A stretch of DNA of 64,000 nt from Methanospirillum hungatei (GTDB lineage: Archaea; Halobacteriota; Methanomicrobia; Methanomicrobiales; Methanospirillaceae): assembly GCF_019263745.1 (NCBI RefSeq), contig NZ_CP077107.1, forward strand, positions 2,170,001 through 2,234,000, read 5' to 3'. The notes under the pieces were generated by a model, which was not told where the DNA came from, ran no database searches, and saw nothing but the letters and a program-made list of their open reading frames with translations. The translations under genes and the position numbers were made by a program. Positions 26,088 to 34,951 of this stretch are shown in pieces; the first letter of the stretch is position 1; each line of letters begins with the position of its first letter.

Positions 26088-28634
26088 CCATTGCAGGACC
26101 TGGCTCAGTATGGAAAAGACGGATTATCATCAGAATCTGTTCTGGAATCACGAACAAAATATGGGAAAAATGAACTTACTCCCCCAAAACGGATTCCGGT
26201 CTGGAAACAATACTTGGAAAAATACCAGGATCCGATAATCCGGATTCTACTTGTTGCCGTTGTCCTTTCTGCAGTTGTTGCTCTCTTGGAAGGCAATAGT
26301 CTCATCGACACTATAGGAATCGCACTTGCAGTCATATTAGCAACGACCATAGCATTTTTAACCGAATACCGGAGTAACCGGGAGTTTGACGCATTAAATG
26401 CGATGCGGGAGGATACCGCAGTCAAGGTAATCAGAAATAACAGCCCCTCCACCATTCCGATGAGGGATGTTGTTGTTGGTGATGCCATACTCCTGGAAGC
26501 AGGCGATATGGTTCCGGCAGACGGGTACCTTCTGGTTGCATCTGACATAGAAACAGATGAATCAGCCTTTACCGGTGAGAGCGAGCCGGTTAAGAAGAAT
26601 GATCATGATGTTATTCTGAAAGGATCGTATATCACCAACGGCAGAGGAACAATGATTGCAGCGGCTGTCGGTGATTTGACAAAAATGGGGATGATAGCCT
26701 CATCGCTGATAGAGGGAACACGACCCGAAACCCCGCTCCAGGTAAAACTGAAAGATTTGGCACACCTGATAAGCAAATTCGGGTATTTCATGGCAGGACT
26801 TATCATCGCCCTGGTCCTGGCCCAGGAATTTTTATCCGGTGCCCCTCCGCAAACTCCGCTTGAGATCTTCTCTGTCCTTTTGCATGCCTGTATGTTTGCG
26901 GTTGTCATCATCGTTGTCTCGGTTCCGGAAGGTCTCCCGGTCAGTGTTACCGTATCACTTGCCCTTACCATGGGGAAGATGACCAGGGCAAAAAGTCTTG
27001 TCAGACGGATGATTGCCTGTGAGACAGTAGGTTCGGTCACGGTTATCTGCACAGACAAAACCGGAACACTCACGATGAACCAGATGGAGGTTGCGGCATC
27101 ATCCATCGAAGTTCCAGAGGAAATAAAGGGGTATCCATCAGCTCCTGCCGAATGGATTACTCTGAATGCTGCCGTAAACAGCACAGCAGAGCTTGAACAC
27201 TCCGGTGGAAAAATGATAACCGTCGGAAACTCTACTGAAGCTGCTCTTCTTCGCTGGCTTCATCGGGCAGGAATCGCATATCCGGATATCAGAAAGGCGA
27301 TACCACCAGTACATCAGGATTTTTTCAACTCAAAGAAAAAACAGATGTCTACCATTGTCCAATTCGGAGATAAACAGGTTATCCTGGTGAAAGGTGCTCC
27401 AGAGATCATTGCATCACGGTGCAGCCCTGCCCCGGATCTAAAGAATCTTCACCACCTGGCAGAACGGGCAATGAGAACGCTGGCATTTGCACATGGCACA
27501 CTCAGCCCGCAAGGAGATGAACCAGGGGCACTCATCTGGGACGGGTATGTCGGTATCAGGGATGAAGTCAGACCCGATGTCCCGGAAGCTGTGAAAACCT
27601 GTAATAATGCAGGAATCACGGTAAAAATGGTCACCGGTGACAGCCCTGAGACTGGTGCAGCCATAGCCAGAGAGACCGGTATTCTGACCTCTGGATCCAT
27701 CATGACCGGGCCAGAGTTCAGGGAATTATCTGAAGAAAAAAGAAGGGAAGTGGTCAGGGATATCCAGGTTCTTGCCAGGTCAGAGCCTCATGACAAATTG
27801 CTCTTAGTAAAAGCCCTTCAGTCAAACGGAGATGTTGTCGCTGTTACTGGTGACGGAACAAATGATGCCCCGGCTCTTCGGAATGCTGATGTCGGTCTCG
27901 CAATGGGTATTGCAGGAACCGAGGTGGCAAGAGAAGCTAGTGACATTATTCTTCTGGATGATTCTTTCCCGACTATTGAGCGGGCAGTATGGTGGGGGAG
28001 AGCATTATTTGAAAATATCCAGCGGTTTTTGATATTCCAGCTGACCATTAACATATCTGCTGCAATCCTGACATTTACCGCTCCACTTCTTGGATTAAAA
28101 CCACCATTTACGATTATCCAACTTCTCTGGATTAATATCATCATGGATTCGCTTGCAGCTCTGGCTCTCTGCTCTGAGGCACCTCACCCGGCCCTGATGA
28201 GCAAAAAACCAATCCCACGAACTGCATCGGTTATCACCCCGTATATGAAACGTGCAATTCTCATAACTGCCGGGATATACATTGTCGCTGGAATTGCCGG
28301 ATTATGGGCAGGTCTTCCATGTATGGAGACACCTGAACAGCAGGCAACAGCATTCTTTGCAGGATTTGTACTTGCACAGGTCTGGAATGGTATTAACTGC
28401 CGGGGGATTAATGGGATCATGCCCCCCTTGTTCAAAGGAAACCCGGTCTTCTATGGGATAATGGGACTTATTGTTGTGATTCAGATAATCATCGTGCAGT
28501 TTGGAGGAGAGATATTTGATACCGTGCCATTAAGTCCGGTTCAATGGGTTGTCATTGGCCTTGGGACTATGCCTGTATTATTGATCTGGCCGCTGCTCCG
28601 GATAATTACACACAAATCAGTTCGGTCTGAATAA
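26082..28634 (+). CDS. P-type Ca2+-transporting ATPase (P2B-like)
   Basis: The protein has 850 residues. The order is normal for P2 ATPases: N-terminal cation-ATPase domain, actuator TDESAFTGESEPVKK (near 165), PEGLPVSVTVSLAL in M4 (near 287), phosphorylated Asp325 in ICTDKTGTLT, VTGDGTNDAPALRNADVG (near 590), and six C-terminal membrane segments. The M4 sequence and CETVGSVT are closest to calmodulin-type (P2B) calcium pumps, without a regulatory tail. An upstream ATG (26013) would add a Cys-rich extension but falls inside an inverted repeat, so 26082 is preferred although no good ribosome site precedes it. Confidence 0.92.
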   Translation: MIPLQDLAQYGKDGLSSESVLESRTKYGKNELTPPKRIPVWKQYLEKYQDPIIRILLVAVVLSAVVALLEGNSLIDTIGIALAVILATTIAFLTEYRSNREFDALNAMREDTAVKVIRNNSPSTIPMRDVVVGDAILLEAGDMVPADGYLLVASDIETDESAFTGESEPVKKNDHDVILKGSYITNGRGTMIAAAVGDLTKMGMIASSLIEGTRPETPLQVKLKDLAHLISKFGYFMAGLIIALVLAQEFLSGAPPQTPLEIFSVLLHACMFAVVIIVVSVPEGLPVSVTVSLALTMGKMTRAKSLVRRMIACETVGSVTVICTDKTGTLTMNQMEVAASSIEVPEEIKGYPSAPAEWITLNAAVNSTAELEHSGGKMITVGNSTEAALLRWLHRAGIAYPDIRKAIPPVHQDFFNSKKKQMSTIVQFGDKQVILVKGAPEIIASRCSPAPDLKNLHHLAERAMRTLAFAHGTLSPQGDEPGALIWDGYVGIRDEVRPDVPEAVKTCNNAGITVKMVTGDSPETGAAIARETGILTSGSIMTGPEFRELSEEKRREVVRDIQVLARSEPHDKLLLVKALQSNGDVVAVTGDGTNDAPALRNADVGLAMGIAGTEVAREASDIILLDDSFPTIERAVWWGRALFENIQRFLIFQLTINISAAILTFTAPLLGLKPPFTIIQLLWINIIMDSLAALALCSEAPHPALMSKKPIPRTASVITPYMKRAILITAGIYIVAGIAGLWAGLPCMETPEQQATAFFAGFVLAQVWNGINCRGINGIMPPLFKGNPVFYGIMGLIVVIQIIIVQFGGEIFDTVPLSPVQWVVIGLGTMPVLLIWPLLRIITHKSVRSE

Positions 28635-28698
28635 ATTACTCCCTTACTTTTTATTCTTCTCCCTTATCGGGAAGAGAGTGGAGTTATCAGGTTCTCAT

Positions 28699-29397
28699 TT
28701 AACGAACCCTATTTTTACTTTTTTTCCTGAACAGGTAAACCATAAAAGAAAATGTAGACATAATAAACACAAGTACGAGGACTGGAATTACCAAATACCA
28801 GAGGTTTACATCCAAGTATTCTTGTATCGCAAACATCGACATCCCGATGATATAACTTTGCAGAATAGTCCCTGCCAAAACCGCTGAAAAAATTTTAGAG
28901 GGATTCATCCCAAGTATTCTTCCCAGGATTGAACCTCCAATAGATCCTGATCCCTGCAAGGGAAGAAAAACAAAAGTAGCCAGGCCAATAAAGCAGAAAC
29001 GCTCTATCCACCGATGTTTTGAGAGATAATTACTGCCATTCTGAACCAGAAAAGAGATCCATCTCCCTAATATGGGAATTCTGCAGACAACGTCAAAATT
29101 CCAGAGCATAAAAGTGCATAATACCATATCTACATAGGTGAAGACAAAGCAGACAACCTGCCATGAGAATCCTAATGCAATTGCTGCAGGAATTATTGAC
29201 TCTTTTCCTGCTGGAGGAATGAAATAGAGAAAAATGAGGCTGACTATCTGAATAAACTGCTGATAATCATACATTATCCAGAGGGTAAGGATGAGGAGAG
29301 ATCCAAGGATAAACGGTATTGCGAATAATAATACACGATGGATTTTATGTTGATGTTCAGTTAATCGTGTACTATCCATCCATTCCGAAAGTTTCAT
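28699..29397 (-). CDS. putative small multidrug-export family membrane protein
   Basis: The protein has 232 residues and about six membrane segments. The motifs IPPAGKESIIPAAIALG (near 60) and FVFLPLQGSGSIGGSILGRI (near 141) resemble the family named putative small multidrug export proteins (COG2426); export of drugs has not been shown for it. It starts 18 bases after the flippase-like gene and is likely in its operon. Confidence 0.75.
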   Translation of the reverse strand: MKLSEWMDSTRLTEHQHKIHRVLLFAIPFILGSLLILTLWIMYDYQQFIQIVSLIFLYFIPPAGKESIIPAAIALGFSWQVVCFVFTYVDMVLCTFMLWNFDVVCRIPILGRWISFLVQNGSNYLSKHRWIERFCFIGLATFVFLPLQGSGSIGGSILGRILGMNPSKIFSAVLAGTILQSYIIGMSMFAIQEYLDVNLWYLVIPVLVLVFIMSTFSFMVYLFRKKSKNRVR

Positions 29398-29415
29398 ATC
29401 TTTTTCCTCAGAATG

Positions 29416-30432
29416 TTAGTTTTCACTCGTAACCTCTCGTTTTACAATGAGAATGGTGCCGACAAGTCCGAGCAGAACATTCAGATAGAACATGATAAGT
29501 CTCCATAACAGGATGAAAACGCCAAGAATGGCTGTCGGGACAAAGAGAGCATAAAGTGAAGTAGCAGAAATCTCTGCAATTCCTGATGCTCCCGGAGTAA
29601 GTGGGATCATACTCACAAGAGCGATGATTATCTGGGCAAATATTGAATTTCCAAGAGACGGTGGAAGACCAAGACCCATGAGGATAACAGAGGCAACAAC
29701 AAACTCAGAGATCCAGAAGAGAAGTGAGAAGAAAAATCCCTGCATGACTCCTGCTTTTCCGCATCCTGCAAATGATACAAGCCCTGAAGTGAAATGATCA
29801 TACTCCTCATCTGTTCTTGTGATTAATTTCGTTATTGAAGCTGATGGGAACCGCCTTCCAATCCAGTTGAGAAGTCGCATGATCCTGGTTTTTACCTGAA
29901 CCGGATATTTCCCTGCAAGTATCAATACCAGATCAAAGAACAACAAAAGCCCGATAGATAAAAAGATGACTGCAACAAATGCATCACCAAGTCCTACAAT
30001 TACGTCCCACATTAATAGAAGTGCTGCAACTGCAAGGATGACGAGAATAATGGCATCCAAAAAACGTTCAGTTATCACTACAGCAGTTGCATCACCTACT
30101 TTCATCCCTGATTTGTATAACTCATGAATCCTGATTGGTTCACCTCCGGCAGAACTTGGTGTTATTGCTGCTACCAGAAGGTTGGCAATGACTGCCAGGT
30201 AACAAGTTTGAAAAGTAATTTTGTGCCCGAGTGCAAGACACAGAACCTTAATTCTTTGAGCCCAAAGTCCGAAGGATATAAACCGTAATCCTATCGCAAG
30301 ACCTAAAAAGTAAATATTAAAATGCTTTAAATATTGGAATGTCTCTTCATTGAAGGTTGAGAAGAGAATAATGACTAAAACAATAGCACTAAATGCAAAA
30401 GAACCGTAAATCCAAAGTTTTCGCGTATCCAC
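29416..30432 (-). CDS. UPF0104/LPG-synthase-TM-type membrane protein (flippase-like)
   Basis: The protein has 338 residues and about eight membrane segments. TPSSAGGEPIRIHEL (near 91) and LTPGASGIAEIS (near 283) are the hallmark motifs of the family that includes the membrane domain of MprF and AglD-neighbouring proteins. Members are thought to move lipids or lipid-linked sugars across the membrane. It is followed at 18 bases by the small multidrug-export-like gene. Confidence 0.88.
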   Translation of the reverse strand: MDTRKLWIYGSFAFSAIVLVIILFSTFNEETFQYLKHFNIYFLGLAIGLRFISFGLWAQRIKVLCLALGHKITFQTCYLAVIANLLVAAITPSSAGGEPIRIHELYKSGMKVGDATAVVITERFLDAIILVILAVAALLLMWDVIVGLGDAFVAVIFLSIGLLLFFDLVLILAGKYPVQVKTRIMRLLNWIGRRFPSASITKLITRTDEEYDHFTSGLVSFAGCGKAGVMQGFFFSLLFWISEFVVASVILMGLGLPPSLGNSIFAQIIIALVSMIPLTPGASGIAEISATSLYALFVPTAILGVFILLWRLIMFYLNVLLGLVGTILIVKREVTSEN

Positions 30433-30504
30433 TTTCTTCTCCAGTACCTAAGTCCACTTTATTGGGCTCTGATATCTGAAGTAAGTATCATTACCGATGA
30501 TTAA

Positions 30505-30933
30505 AATACAAGAAAACCAGTTGAGATTTCATCGATTCCAAAAGGGAATCGTGAGTGGTTTACGACAATAACCGAGATGATTGATGCATTCTGTGATGAG
30601 AGGCTGGATGATGAATATGCAGAGATCTGCCGGTATGTTGCAGGTAAACTTGCACGAAACCGTGATTGCCAGGTTTTGAGGGGAAAGATACCGATCTGGG
30701 CATTTGGAATCATCTATGCTGTCGGACAAATAAATTTCCTCTTTGATACATCGTTTGAGCTCTATCAGTTGGCTGATGATATCTGCTCGTATTTTGGCAC
30801 AAGCAAAAGTACTGTATCATAAAAAGCAAAGATGATCCGGGATTTCATTGGGATGGACAGATATTGGGATCCGAAGTATTCAACTTCTCGAATGATGAAT
30901 AAAAACCCGTTTGAAAGGTTTTTGATGCCATGA
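30505..30933 (+). pseudogene. broken DUF6398 gene with in-frame TAA
   Basis: In one frame the sequence encodes a DUF6398-like domain: MIDAFCDERLDDEYAEICRY, LRGKIPIWAFGIIYAVGQIN and FGTSKSTVS, then TAA at 30820-30822, then directly KAKMIRDFIGMDRYWDPKYS in the same frame until TGA at 30931. In intact members the serine-rich turn runs straight into the KAK helix, so the TAA interrupts the domain. The upstream coding-like part (from 30505) has no start codon before ATG 30577. It is most simply a decayed gene; stop readthrough is an alternative. TAA is not a pyrrolysine codon. Confidence 0.75.
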
Positions 30934-30995
30934 CCTGGATTTAAGGTCACATAACCTCATCTCTACGGGCTGAAGGTATGTATACGAACGATGGA

Positions 30996-31832
30996 TCAGG
31001 TGCCGGATGAATACGCTCCGGTAAGGATTTTTCCCAGTTCGTTTAAATTTCTGCTTAATCCCTCTTTTGTGGATGACAAGGGTACAATATATGGATTAAC
31101 ATCAGAATGCATAACTAAAGAATGGACACCATAGACGGATTGAATTACATCTCTGGTAATTACGTTCCTTGGATCTCCTGCCGTAAAGATCTTCCCATCT
31201 TTCATGATAATTACCTGGTCGGCATATCGCATTGACATATTCAGATCATGACTGACCAAAACGATCTGCAGTTTTCCATAATCAACAAGCCCTCTTAACA
31301 TCTCCATAACCTCTAACTGATGCCGGATATCAAGATTTGAGGTGGGTTCATCAAGCAGGAGAACTTCTGGCATCTGGGCGAGACCCCGTGCAATGAATAC
31401 CTTTTGTCGTTGTCCCCCGCTGAGTTCATCAATATACCGGAGAGCGATATCTTCTAAGTCCATAAAGTGTAGAATGTTAGAGACAATATCAAGATCATTT
31501 TTTGCAGAAGAAAGTTTGGAATGAGGGTGACGCCCGAGAAGTACAACATCCATCACCGTCAGAGCAGGAATATCGTCACGTTCCTGGGGAACAAACCCAA
31601 TCTGTCTGGCGATCTCATTGATGTTCATATGAGCGACTTCTTTCCCATTCAAAAGGATGACTCCTTTTTGAGGAGAAATTATCCGGTTCATGCAGTGAAG
31701 GAGCGTTGATTTACCAACTCCATTCGGTCCGAGTATGCAAATCAGCTTTGAGTGTCCTAAATCCAGGCAGATATCATCAAGGATCTTCTCACTTGAATAG
31801 GAAAATTCAACGTTTTTAAAACAGATTTTCAT
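30996..31832 (-). CDS. ABC importer ATPase, iron-siderophore/cobalamin type
   Basis: The protein has 278 residues. Walker A GPNGVGKST (near 35), signature LSGGQRQKVFIARGLA (near 138), Walker B VLLLDEPTSNLD (near 158) and switch His VLVSHDLNMS (near 191) are all intact. The family powers uptake of iron chelates, haem or vitamin B12 through FecCD/BtuC permeases. It is the last gene of a four-gene operon after the binding protein, methyltransferase and permease. The C-terminal 30 residues go beyond the usual domain. Confidence 0.93.
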   Translation of the reverse strand: MKICFKNVEFSYSSEKILDDICLDLGHSKLICILGPNGVGKSTLLHCMNRIISPQKGVILLNGKEVAHMNINEIARQIGFVPQERDDIPALTVMDVVLLGRHPHSKLSSAKNDLDIVSNILHFMDLEDIALRYIDELSGGQRQKVFIARGLAQMPEVLLLDEPTSNLDIRHQLEVMEMLRGLVDYGKLQIVLVSHDLNMSMRYADQVIIMKDGKIFTAGDPRNVITRDVIQSVYGVHSLVMHSDVNPYIVPLSSTKEGLSRNLNELGKILTGAYSSGT

Positions 31833-32960: not shown

Positions 32961-33722
32961 TTATAAATCGTTGTCTATCTTCCCTTTCACACCGCTGACA
33001 AGGAAATAGTCCTTCCAGTACCCATGTTTGATGAGCCGGGTCCCACTTAATACACGCCTTTTCAAACCTTCTTTTGCAGTGATATCAATAAAACCCACTT
33101 CTTTCATCATTTCTAGATCAGCAGATGGACGGATTGCATGAGAGGACCATAAATTCAGGCGGGTTTCATCTTCGAATCCATGTGAGTAAGGATTTCGAAA
33201 TTCGGTAATCAATATCAACAATTTAGATAAATCGCTCCATCTGCGTCTGAACCAGGAATTTTTGAGATCCGTATACCAGTTTCCATCAATATACACAACC
33301 TTTCCCCCAGGTTTTACCACACGATACCATTCGTGTAAGGCTTTTTCTGGATGTGGTATCGTCCATAATGCAAACTTGCTCACAACTGCATCAAAGGAGT
33401 TATCAGGAAATGGGAGGGACTCTGCATCTCCCTTTTGAAATTCAATTGATTGTTTGAATCGTTTACAATTCTCAATCGCTTCTTTGAGCATCCCATCAGA
33501 ATTGTCTACCCCGGTGACATCATGACCAAGATATGCCAGTTGTAAAGCTACAACTCCAGGACCGGTCCCTACATCAAGAACTTTTAATTTTTTAGTCCCG
33601 AGTTCCCCTGAAAAAATGGTTTGCCATCCTTCCCGCTCATATCGCTTGGAAAGACCTGTCTGGACAAATTTACTATACCCGAATGACTGGTTTGTCCATG
33701 CATCTGCTATCTCTTCTTTCAT
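32961..33722 (-). CDS. SAM-dependent methyltransferase (UbiE-like) in the importer operon
   Basis: The protein has 253 residues. The SAM-binding motifs are clear: VLDVGTGPGVVALQLA (near 48), GVDNSDGMLKEA (near 70), GDAESLPFPDNSFDAVV (near 98) and VVKPGGKVVYIDG (near 135). The substrate is unknown. ATG 33722 is chosen because it overlaps the stop of the binding-protein gene as ATGA, so the two are translationally coupled; a longer reading would overlap it by 46 bases. It may modify the imported ligand or a chelator. Confidence 0.87.
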   Translation of the reverse strand: MKEEIADAWTNQSFGYSKFVQTGLSKRYEREGWQTIFSGELGTKKLKVLDVGTGPGVVALQLAYLGHDVTGVDNSDGMLKEAIENCKRFKQSIEFQKGDAESLPFPDNSFDAVVSKFALWTIPHPEKALHEWYRVVKPGGKVVYIDGNWYTDLKNSWFRRRWSDLSKLLILITEFRNPYSHGFEDETRLNLWSSHAIRPSADLEMMKEVGFIDITAKEGLKRRVLSGTRLIKHGYWKDYFLVSGVKGKIDNDL

Positions 33723-34951
33723 AATGCAAACCCATAGTTGGATACATCCAGTGAAATACCGCAAAATCTGTCGATATAGTCCTGGTGAATCTTCTGTGGA
33801 TTGAGATCTTCAAAGAGCTCAGGATAGAACCATTTTGCTTCGTATGCAATTGAAACCAGATAGGAGGCTCCATTGGTGATATCAAATGCGAGAACGTGAA
33901 TATTATCATTTTTCGCCGAACTGGTGACACGGAATGTATCTTTCACCAGGTCAAGACGTTCCTTGAGCGGAGTAATATTTGCATTGTATCCAGCTGTTAT
34001 GATGCTGATGATATGGTCAGGATCTTTTTGAATGGCCCATTCTGTGTCATACACCGGATAAATTCCTTCATCAAGTTCTCTTCCGATGTTCACCGCTCCA
34101 GCTATCTCTGAGTTCTCTAAGTCACCGCTTCCAACTCCCCGTGCTTTATTTCCGACAGAGTCTAACAGGACTGTTACTTTTTCATCTTCAGGAATGGCTC
34201 CCACCCTGGTCTGAATGTCATGGAGGATATCATCATGCCATTTCAGGTATTCATATGCCTTGTCTTCTTTCCCAAGGATATAACTGAGAACGAGGATACC
34301 TGATATGGTCTTTCCAGACTCCCATGATGGAAGACGAACTACGTCAATACCTGCTAATTTATTCTCTAATTCTGGATCATATGAATTACGAGTTCCGGTG
34401 TAGAAAACATCTGGCTTGAGGGCTAATATCTTCTCGGCATCCGGTTTAAAGCGGTCACCAAAAGATGGCAGGTTACATAACTCTGGAAAGAACGTAGGAT
34501 ATTTGGCAATTGCATCATCAATACCAATTATTTTATCTGCAGCTCCAAGGACACGAACAATTTCTGCATATTTTGTGTAGGATACTACGATTGATTCAAC
34601 AGGCAGGGTGACAGAACTATCCTGTCCGTCAATATCAACATAATGCAATTTTGTCGCCGTATGATCCATAATTGCCTGGATCTGCTTGATGTCGTCTTCA
34701 GATATTACTCCATCCAAATTTGCATCTGCAAGAATCGTCTTCTCTTTATTTCCGGCAATTATTCCATTAATGTAGTCAATGTCCTGTTCATCTATCACCA
34801 GATCTCCATTCGCATTTCCATACACCGTAAGGGTAATAGATGACATCTTGTCCCCGAAATCCTGCGATGATGCATCAACTGCTCCGAATATCAATCCTAA
34901 TACCATCAATGCGACAAGAAGTCGAGCTCTCAAAACAATTTTTTTTGACAT
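33719..34951 (-). CDS. dockerin-bearing periplasmic binding protein of an ABC importer
   Basis: The protein has 410 residues. A signal peptide or anchor (residues 8-27) is followed by a type I dockerin-like pair of calcium loops: NANGDLVIDEQD (46-57) and DANLDGVISEDD (76-87). The rest (about 115-400) is an iron/cobalamin-type binding protein: VVSYTKYAEIVRVLGAADKI, ALKPDVFYTG and VTVLLDSVGN. It captures the ligand outside the membrane. The dockerin may tether it to a cohesin-bearing surface partner. It is the first gene of the operon; a TATA-like ATTATAATATA lies at 34977-34987. Confidence 0.88.
   Translation of the reverse strand: MSKKIVLRARLLVALMVLGLIFGAVDASSQDFGDKMSSITLTVYGNANGDLVIDEQDIDYINGIIAGNKEKTILADANLDGVISEDDIKQIQAIMDHTATKLHYVDIDGQDSSVTLPVESIVVSYTKYAEIVRVLGAADKIIGIDDAIAKYPTFFPELCNLPSFGDRFKPDAEKILALKPDVFYTGTRNSYDPELENKLAGIDVVRLPSWESGKTISGILVLSYILGKEDKAYEYLKWHDDILHDIQTRVGAIPEDEKVTVLLDSVGNKARGVGSGDLENSEIAGAVNIGRELDEGIYPVYDTEWAIQKDPDHIISIITAGYNANITPLKERLDLVKDTFRVTSSAKNDNIHVLAFDITNGASYLVSIAYEAKWFYPELFEDLNPQKIHQDYIDRFCGISLDVSNYGFAL

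Follow-up and report, generated by a model that had tools for sequence, protein, structure and literature searches.

The DUF6398 frame at positions 30505-30933 of the window (the whole 64,000-nucleotide stretch of the Methanospirillum hungatei genome that was analysed) is very probably, at about 0.88, a recently decayed pseudogene remnant: a 3' fragment left without a start codon by a rearrangement and carrying a nonsense change. The locus has at least two lesions and is a commonplace case of gene decay. Its frame is preceded by a TAA (30502-30504), closed by a TGA (30931-30933) and shows an in-frame TAA at 30820-30822, inside an otherwise continuous DUF6398 frame. It is made up of the following parts:

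30509-30819, + strand: surviving 3' fragment before the stop, matching DUF6398 profile positions 2-85; over 419 bases, its DNA is 84% identical to that of M. stamsii
30820-30822, + strand: in-frame TAA, replacing the glutamine codon of the relatives, in the final helix of what is predicted to be a helix-turn-helix
30823-30930, + strand: remainder after the stop, in register with the relatives, 28 of 36 residues identical to M. stamsii, omega 0.096
30931-30933, + strand: TGA, a few codons short of the end of the M. stamsii gene

Read across the stop, the frame matches positions 2-105 of the 106 of the PF19935 profile (130.5 bits, E 8.5e-38), over the Pfam cut-off of 27.2 bits, which bears out the initial annotation in that the family register is kept on both sides of an in-frame TAA. 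The part before the stop exceeds this cut-off by itself (107.5 bits), and the 36 amino acids after the stop, taken alone, give no Pfam score. Identity to the M. stamsii protein is 87 of 103 residues before the stop and 28 of 36 after it; 30505-30933 is not a chance open reading frame. The absence of a start codon from the upstream part, also noted at the outset, was confirmed: no ATG, GTG or TTG is in frame from 30505 up to the ATG at 30577-30579 (+), the frame passes from the upstream stop into the family domain without one, and this first start is within the domain, which begins 5' of it, so that its product would be of 81 amino acids, ended by the TAA. A PF19935 search of the own genome shows a single DUF6398 place, with one TAA inside. 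In a set of 101 genomes (the own one and 100 relatives), DUF6398 is present in 18 genomes, at 24 places, and an internal stop is reported only at that of the window.

The contig scan for DUF6398 gave 46 loci, of which 41 were examined and five were left out: four with a partial match (L067-L070), and L065, whose match has a length that is not a multiple of three. All 41 relatives extend at least 33 residues past the stop position, and the possibility that homologues end naturally at this point is thereby excluded. Twenty-six of the 41, chosen for having less than 190 amino acids between the domain start and the stop codon, were aligned. The residue at the stop position is glutamine in 18 of these 26, with CAA as the codon of M. 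stamsii and of a further Methanospirillum genome, G002; hence the change from a lysine codon (AAA to TAA), which had been offered as the origin of the stop, is not what the relatives indicate.

The full-length gene is found in M. stamsii (L025, NZ_QGMZ01000018.1), where it encodes a 513-residue protein with an ATG start and DUF6398 as its C-terminal third, and in a second Methanospirillum (G001), whose 508-residue protein is 39% identical to the M. stamsii form over 509 columns. The window matches the M. stamsii protein at residues ~366-511 only, and the whole 3.39-Mb single-contig genome contains only residues 366-510, besides one match at E 0.3. Compared with both intact genes, the open reading frame is disrupted: about 365 5' codons are gone, there is no start and the TAA interrupts what is left. 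The M. stamsii gene is like the window fragment in its syntenic neighbourhood and in the residue identities given above, but it is full length, has an ATG and no internal stop, and lies on the other side of a membrane-protein block. Its N-terminal 380 residues show matches, mostly weak, in 22 of the 232 genomes of the class. This N-terminal region shows no Pfam family above the cut-off and no NCBIfam or PADLOC family, and neither PADLOC nor NCBIfam assigns the two intact proteins or the window fragment to a family. Since the 5' part was lost by rearrangement, the missing start is a second and larger lesion. A single base change, as first proposed, therefore accounts for the stop and not for the locus, the 5' two thirds of which were lost through rearrangement. 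In the same way, 30505 holds as the opening of the frame and fails as the start of the gene, since it is a rearrangement edge with about 365 codons missing leftward.

Homology to M. stamsii (blastn) breaks at 28698/28712 and at 30492/30509. The junctions and the neighbouring genes are these:

28699-28712, no strand: left junction, where the P-type ATPase side meets the block; M. stamsii has CNNM/CorC and the whole 513-residue gene here
28699-29397, - strand: Sm_multidrug_ex family protein (PF06695), in the same block as the LPG_synthase_TM gene
29416-30432, - strand: LPG_synthase_TM membrane protein (PF03706), divergent neighbour, in the block that switched side relative to the gene
30493-30508, no strand: junction at which homology to the region upstream of the M. 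stamsii LPG_synthase_TM gene ends (30492) and homology to the middle of the 513-residue gene begins (30509)
30996-31832, - strand: ABC transporter ATPase gene, right of the fragment, with no match in the 18 kb surrounding the gene in M. stamsii

The junctions are sharp: beyond the breaks, identity drops almost to chance, at 18 of 60 bases to the left of the fragment and 11 of 60 to the right of the block. The fragment ends less abruptly on its right, with 27 of 60 bases identical after 30927. The gene order is changed. In M. stamsii it is P-type ATPase, CNNM/CorC (-), the 513-residue gene (+), the Sm_multidrug_ex homologue (-) and the LPG_synthase_TM homologue (-). The window has the two membrane-protein genes immediately after the ATPase, and the fragment comes next. 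The adjacency of ATPase and CorC is also present in G002 (L133) and was not seen in the seven further orthologous loci of the comparison (L134-L140); its presence in G002 supports, without proving, that the M. stamsii order is the older one. The own genome contains a CorC homologue elsewhere, 69% identical. In a repeat search of 28400-31200, the junctions are not flanked by direct repeats of the kind that would point to a mobile element; the search gives a 23-nt inverted pair (78%), one arm of which, at 30495-30517, lies over the junction. Other LPG_synthase_TM copies in the genus, with identity up to 62%, were taken as paralogues and give no information on the order. Genome G006 has a copy of this gene at 76%; in the 3.3 kb read there, neither inspection by eye nor a DNA search shows a DUF6398 gene.

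These arrangements would be explained by an M. stamsii-like ancestor, with a gene of about 513 codons between the P-type ATPase/CorC pair and the two-gene membrane-protein block. In the window lineage, the 3' third of the gene would have been copied or moved to the far side of the block by rearrangement, and the original site deleted together with CorC and the first ~365 codons. For this order of events we infer, as a possible route, a tandem duplication of the 3' part of the gene together with the block, followed by deletions that would leave the observed junctions. The nonsense change, at a usually conserved glutamine, would then have cut the fragment within the final helix of the helix-turn-helix predicted for it, and most of the residual similarity would be owed to selection before the loss.

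With the M. stamsii protein as query, 6 of 12 Methanospirillum genomes show a match, that of the window among them, and the gene is intact in two of the six (G009 and G001). The G008 copy lacks the N-terminal part and contains residues ~353-432 and 489-512 only, in different frames; it also has a TGA and a deletion that shifts the frame. The G002 copy shows a TAA near its start and lacks ~285 middle codons; it retains an open 197-residue form with the full DUF6398 domain. G003 has a weak match, which probably belongs to another DUF6398 subfamily. The remaining six genomes are without a match, four of them being less than 90% complete. At L072:8803-9594, in G002, a SPASM-domain frame continues directly into the opening residues and the TAA of the damaged DUF6398 gene, which gives the look of a truncated radical-SAM gene fused to it. 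The window at 30509 and L072 at 9595, after the internal deletion of G002, begin at the same protein residue (RKP), and the sequences to the left of these two points differ despite this shared start.

Compared with M. stamsii, the fragment shows a dN of 0.087 and a dS of 0.717, a ratio of 0.121, which is not much higher than that of two neighbour genes (0.072 and 0.075). The initial annotation had suggested a dN/dS of the part after the stop as a check; this is 0.096, against 0.128 for the part before it. Because the ratio has not yet risen towards 1, the gene loss looks recent, and the low value of the fragment is best explained by constraint that acted before the loss; a low ratio before and after an internal stop has to be read with caution, as it can simply reflect such a recent loss. 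Lineage changes were polarised with G002, with the ATPase gene as control. The ratio of replacement to silent changes is 13:12 in the window lineage (stop included), elevated against 27:94 in the control (Fisher p 0.0055), and 9:16 in the M. stamsii lineage, against 28:93 in the control (p 0.21); the direct contrast between the two lineages is non-significant (p 0.39). Replacements in the window lineage strike a lysine kept in 25 of 25 other relatives, a proline kept in 24 of 25 and a glutamate kept in 22 of 25, and changes in the M. stamsii lineage also fall in fairly conserved columns (21 of 25 and 19 of 25). Taken together, these counts are suggestive of a lineage-specific relaxed selection on the window fragment and of no more than that. 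Prokaryotic pseudogenes with a 5' truncation and a nonsense codon resemble the fragment in the lost start, the internal stop, the single copy and the replacements at conserved columns; no essential difference from them was found, with the dN/dS of the fragment not yet near 1. The initial view of decay in progress is supported by the 5' loss, the lack of a start, the stop and the replacements at conserved columns.

That the locus is instead a live shortened gene, starting at ATG 30577 or at a non-standard codon, with the 81-residue piece used or the TAA read through, is improbable. Such a gene would fit the low dN/dS before and after the stop, the short single-domain DUF6398 frames (~137-200 amino acids) common among the relatives, the open 197-residue form of G002 with its full domain, and the in-frame stops with low dN/dS reported in bacteria (PMC7918605); but ATG 30577 lies within the family domain, and the stop falls inside a helix that would contact DNA. 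Readthrough in particular is opposed by the use of TAA as the commonest stop of the window (25 of 43 stop-free frames of at least 250 amino acids), and recoding by the lack of an Rfam match in 30000-31500, so that no known recoding element is present at the locus. A promoter scan, which models bacterial promoters, shows nothing above chance. The initial annotation had left room for programmed readthrough and for a separate use of the N-terminal half; positive evidence was found for neither, the former is unlikely, and we infer that the fragment gives no product.

The TAA is one base away from the codon of the relatives and rests on a single assembly, both of which speak for a sequencing error in an otherwise open, 5'-truncated gene. 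This is very improbable and would not rescue the gene, because the missing start is a separate and larger lesion: without the stop, the frame is still startless before the domain, still lacks 365 residues and is still a remnant. Least probable of all is that the window arrangement is ancestral and that the N-terminal part of the M. stamsii protein was acquired by fusion. The N-terminal region is absent from most DUF6398 relatives, as a fusion would have it, but the 513-residue architecture is found end to end in a more distant Methanospirillum (39%, 509 columns) and partly in G002, and the window fragment is without a start.

Beyond the pseudogene remnant itself, the DUF6398 domain shows a predicted fold of its own interest. 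An AlphaFold2 model of the M. stamsii domain (L025:3037-3447), built on its alignment with 25 relatives (26 sequences in all), has a pLDDT of 89.3 and a pTM of 0.83, with helices at 2-21, 24-38, 44-47, 50-64, 78-85, 89-103 and 116-120. The stop corresponds to model residue 94, in helix 89-103, predicted as the second of a helix-turn-helix-like pair. Foldseek places TFIIB, Brf2, archaeal TFB and cyclins first, with probabilities mostly of 0.9-1.0 and E values of at least 0.08, none below 0.001. In the VIA-align comparison, the model reaches Z 13.2 to 8s52_M (99 residues at 2.0 A, 13% identity) and Z 13.0 to archaeal TFB 1d3u_B (6.2 A over 116 residues); by the tool's own caution, helical models can attain ~14 by chance. 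All 50 matches listed (Z 11.4-13.2) are TFIIB/Brf2-type factors, cyclins, or transcription complexes that contain such a factor; in these complexes, chain M or R is taken to be TFIIB from the structure titles. On this model, the domain is likely a single five-helix cyclin box like those of the TFIIB core. It would share its fold with the core repeat of TFIIB/TFB, but it has one repeat, its identity is only 13% (8s52_M) and the profile comparison is non-significant: hhalign of DUF6398 against a narrow TFB profile (16 repeats from 9 of 30 TFIIB-family loci) gives a probability of 2.8% and P 0.016, with the register shared across the latter half of the repeat, helix-turn-helix included. A PDB sequence search with the DUF6398 profile finds a MarR regulator only (E 0.039).

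Six relatives were scanned with Pfam; four contain TPR repeats together with DUF6398, and two show no other named domain. Tentatively, DUF6398 may be a single TFIIB-type cyclin box serving as a DNA-binding module of archaea and bacteria, alone, with TPR repeats or, in Methanospirillum, with a long N-terminal region. The window would then contain the wreck of a TFB-like regulator, of a family repeatedly lost or cut down in the genus. A search of 5.39 million papers gives no mention of DUF6398, and the TFIIB-like fold, if true, would provide this uncharacterised family of archaea and bacteria with a testable functional hypothesis; the predicted fold is the part most worth following.

Among the TFIIB-family loci, G065:C25:23959-24495 shows a second, diverged family match, the open frame of which is unusually long (971 amino acids), and G075:C1 contains a similar match in a long open frame of 1081 amino acids. 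Elsewhere in the window, the gene at 33719-34951 (-) encodes a periplasmic binding protein (PF01497), the N-terminal part of which, by eye, resembles a dockerin-type calcium-binding repeat.
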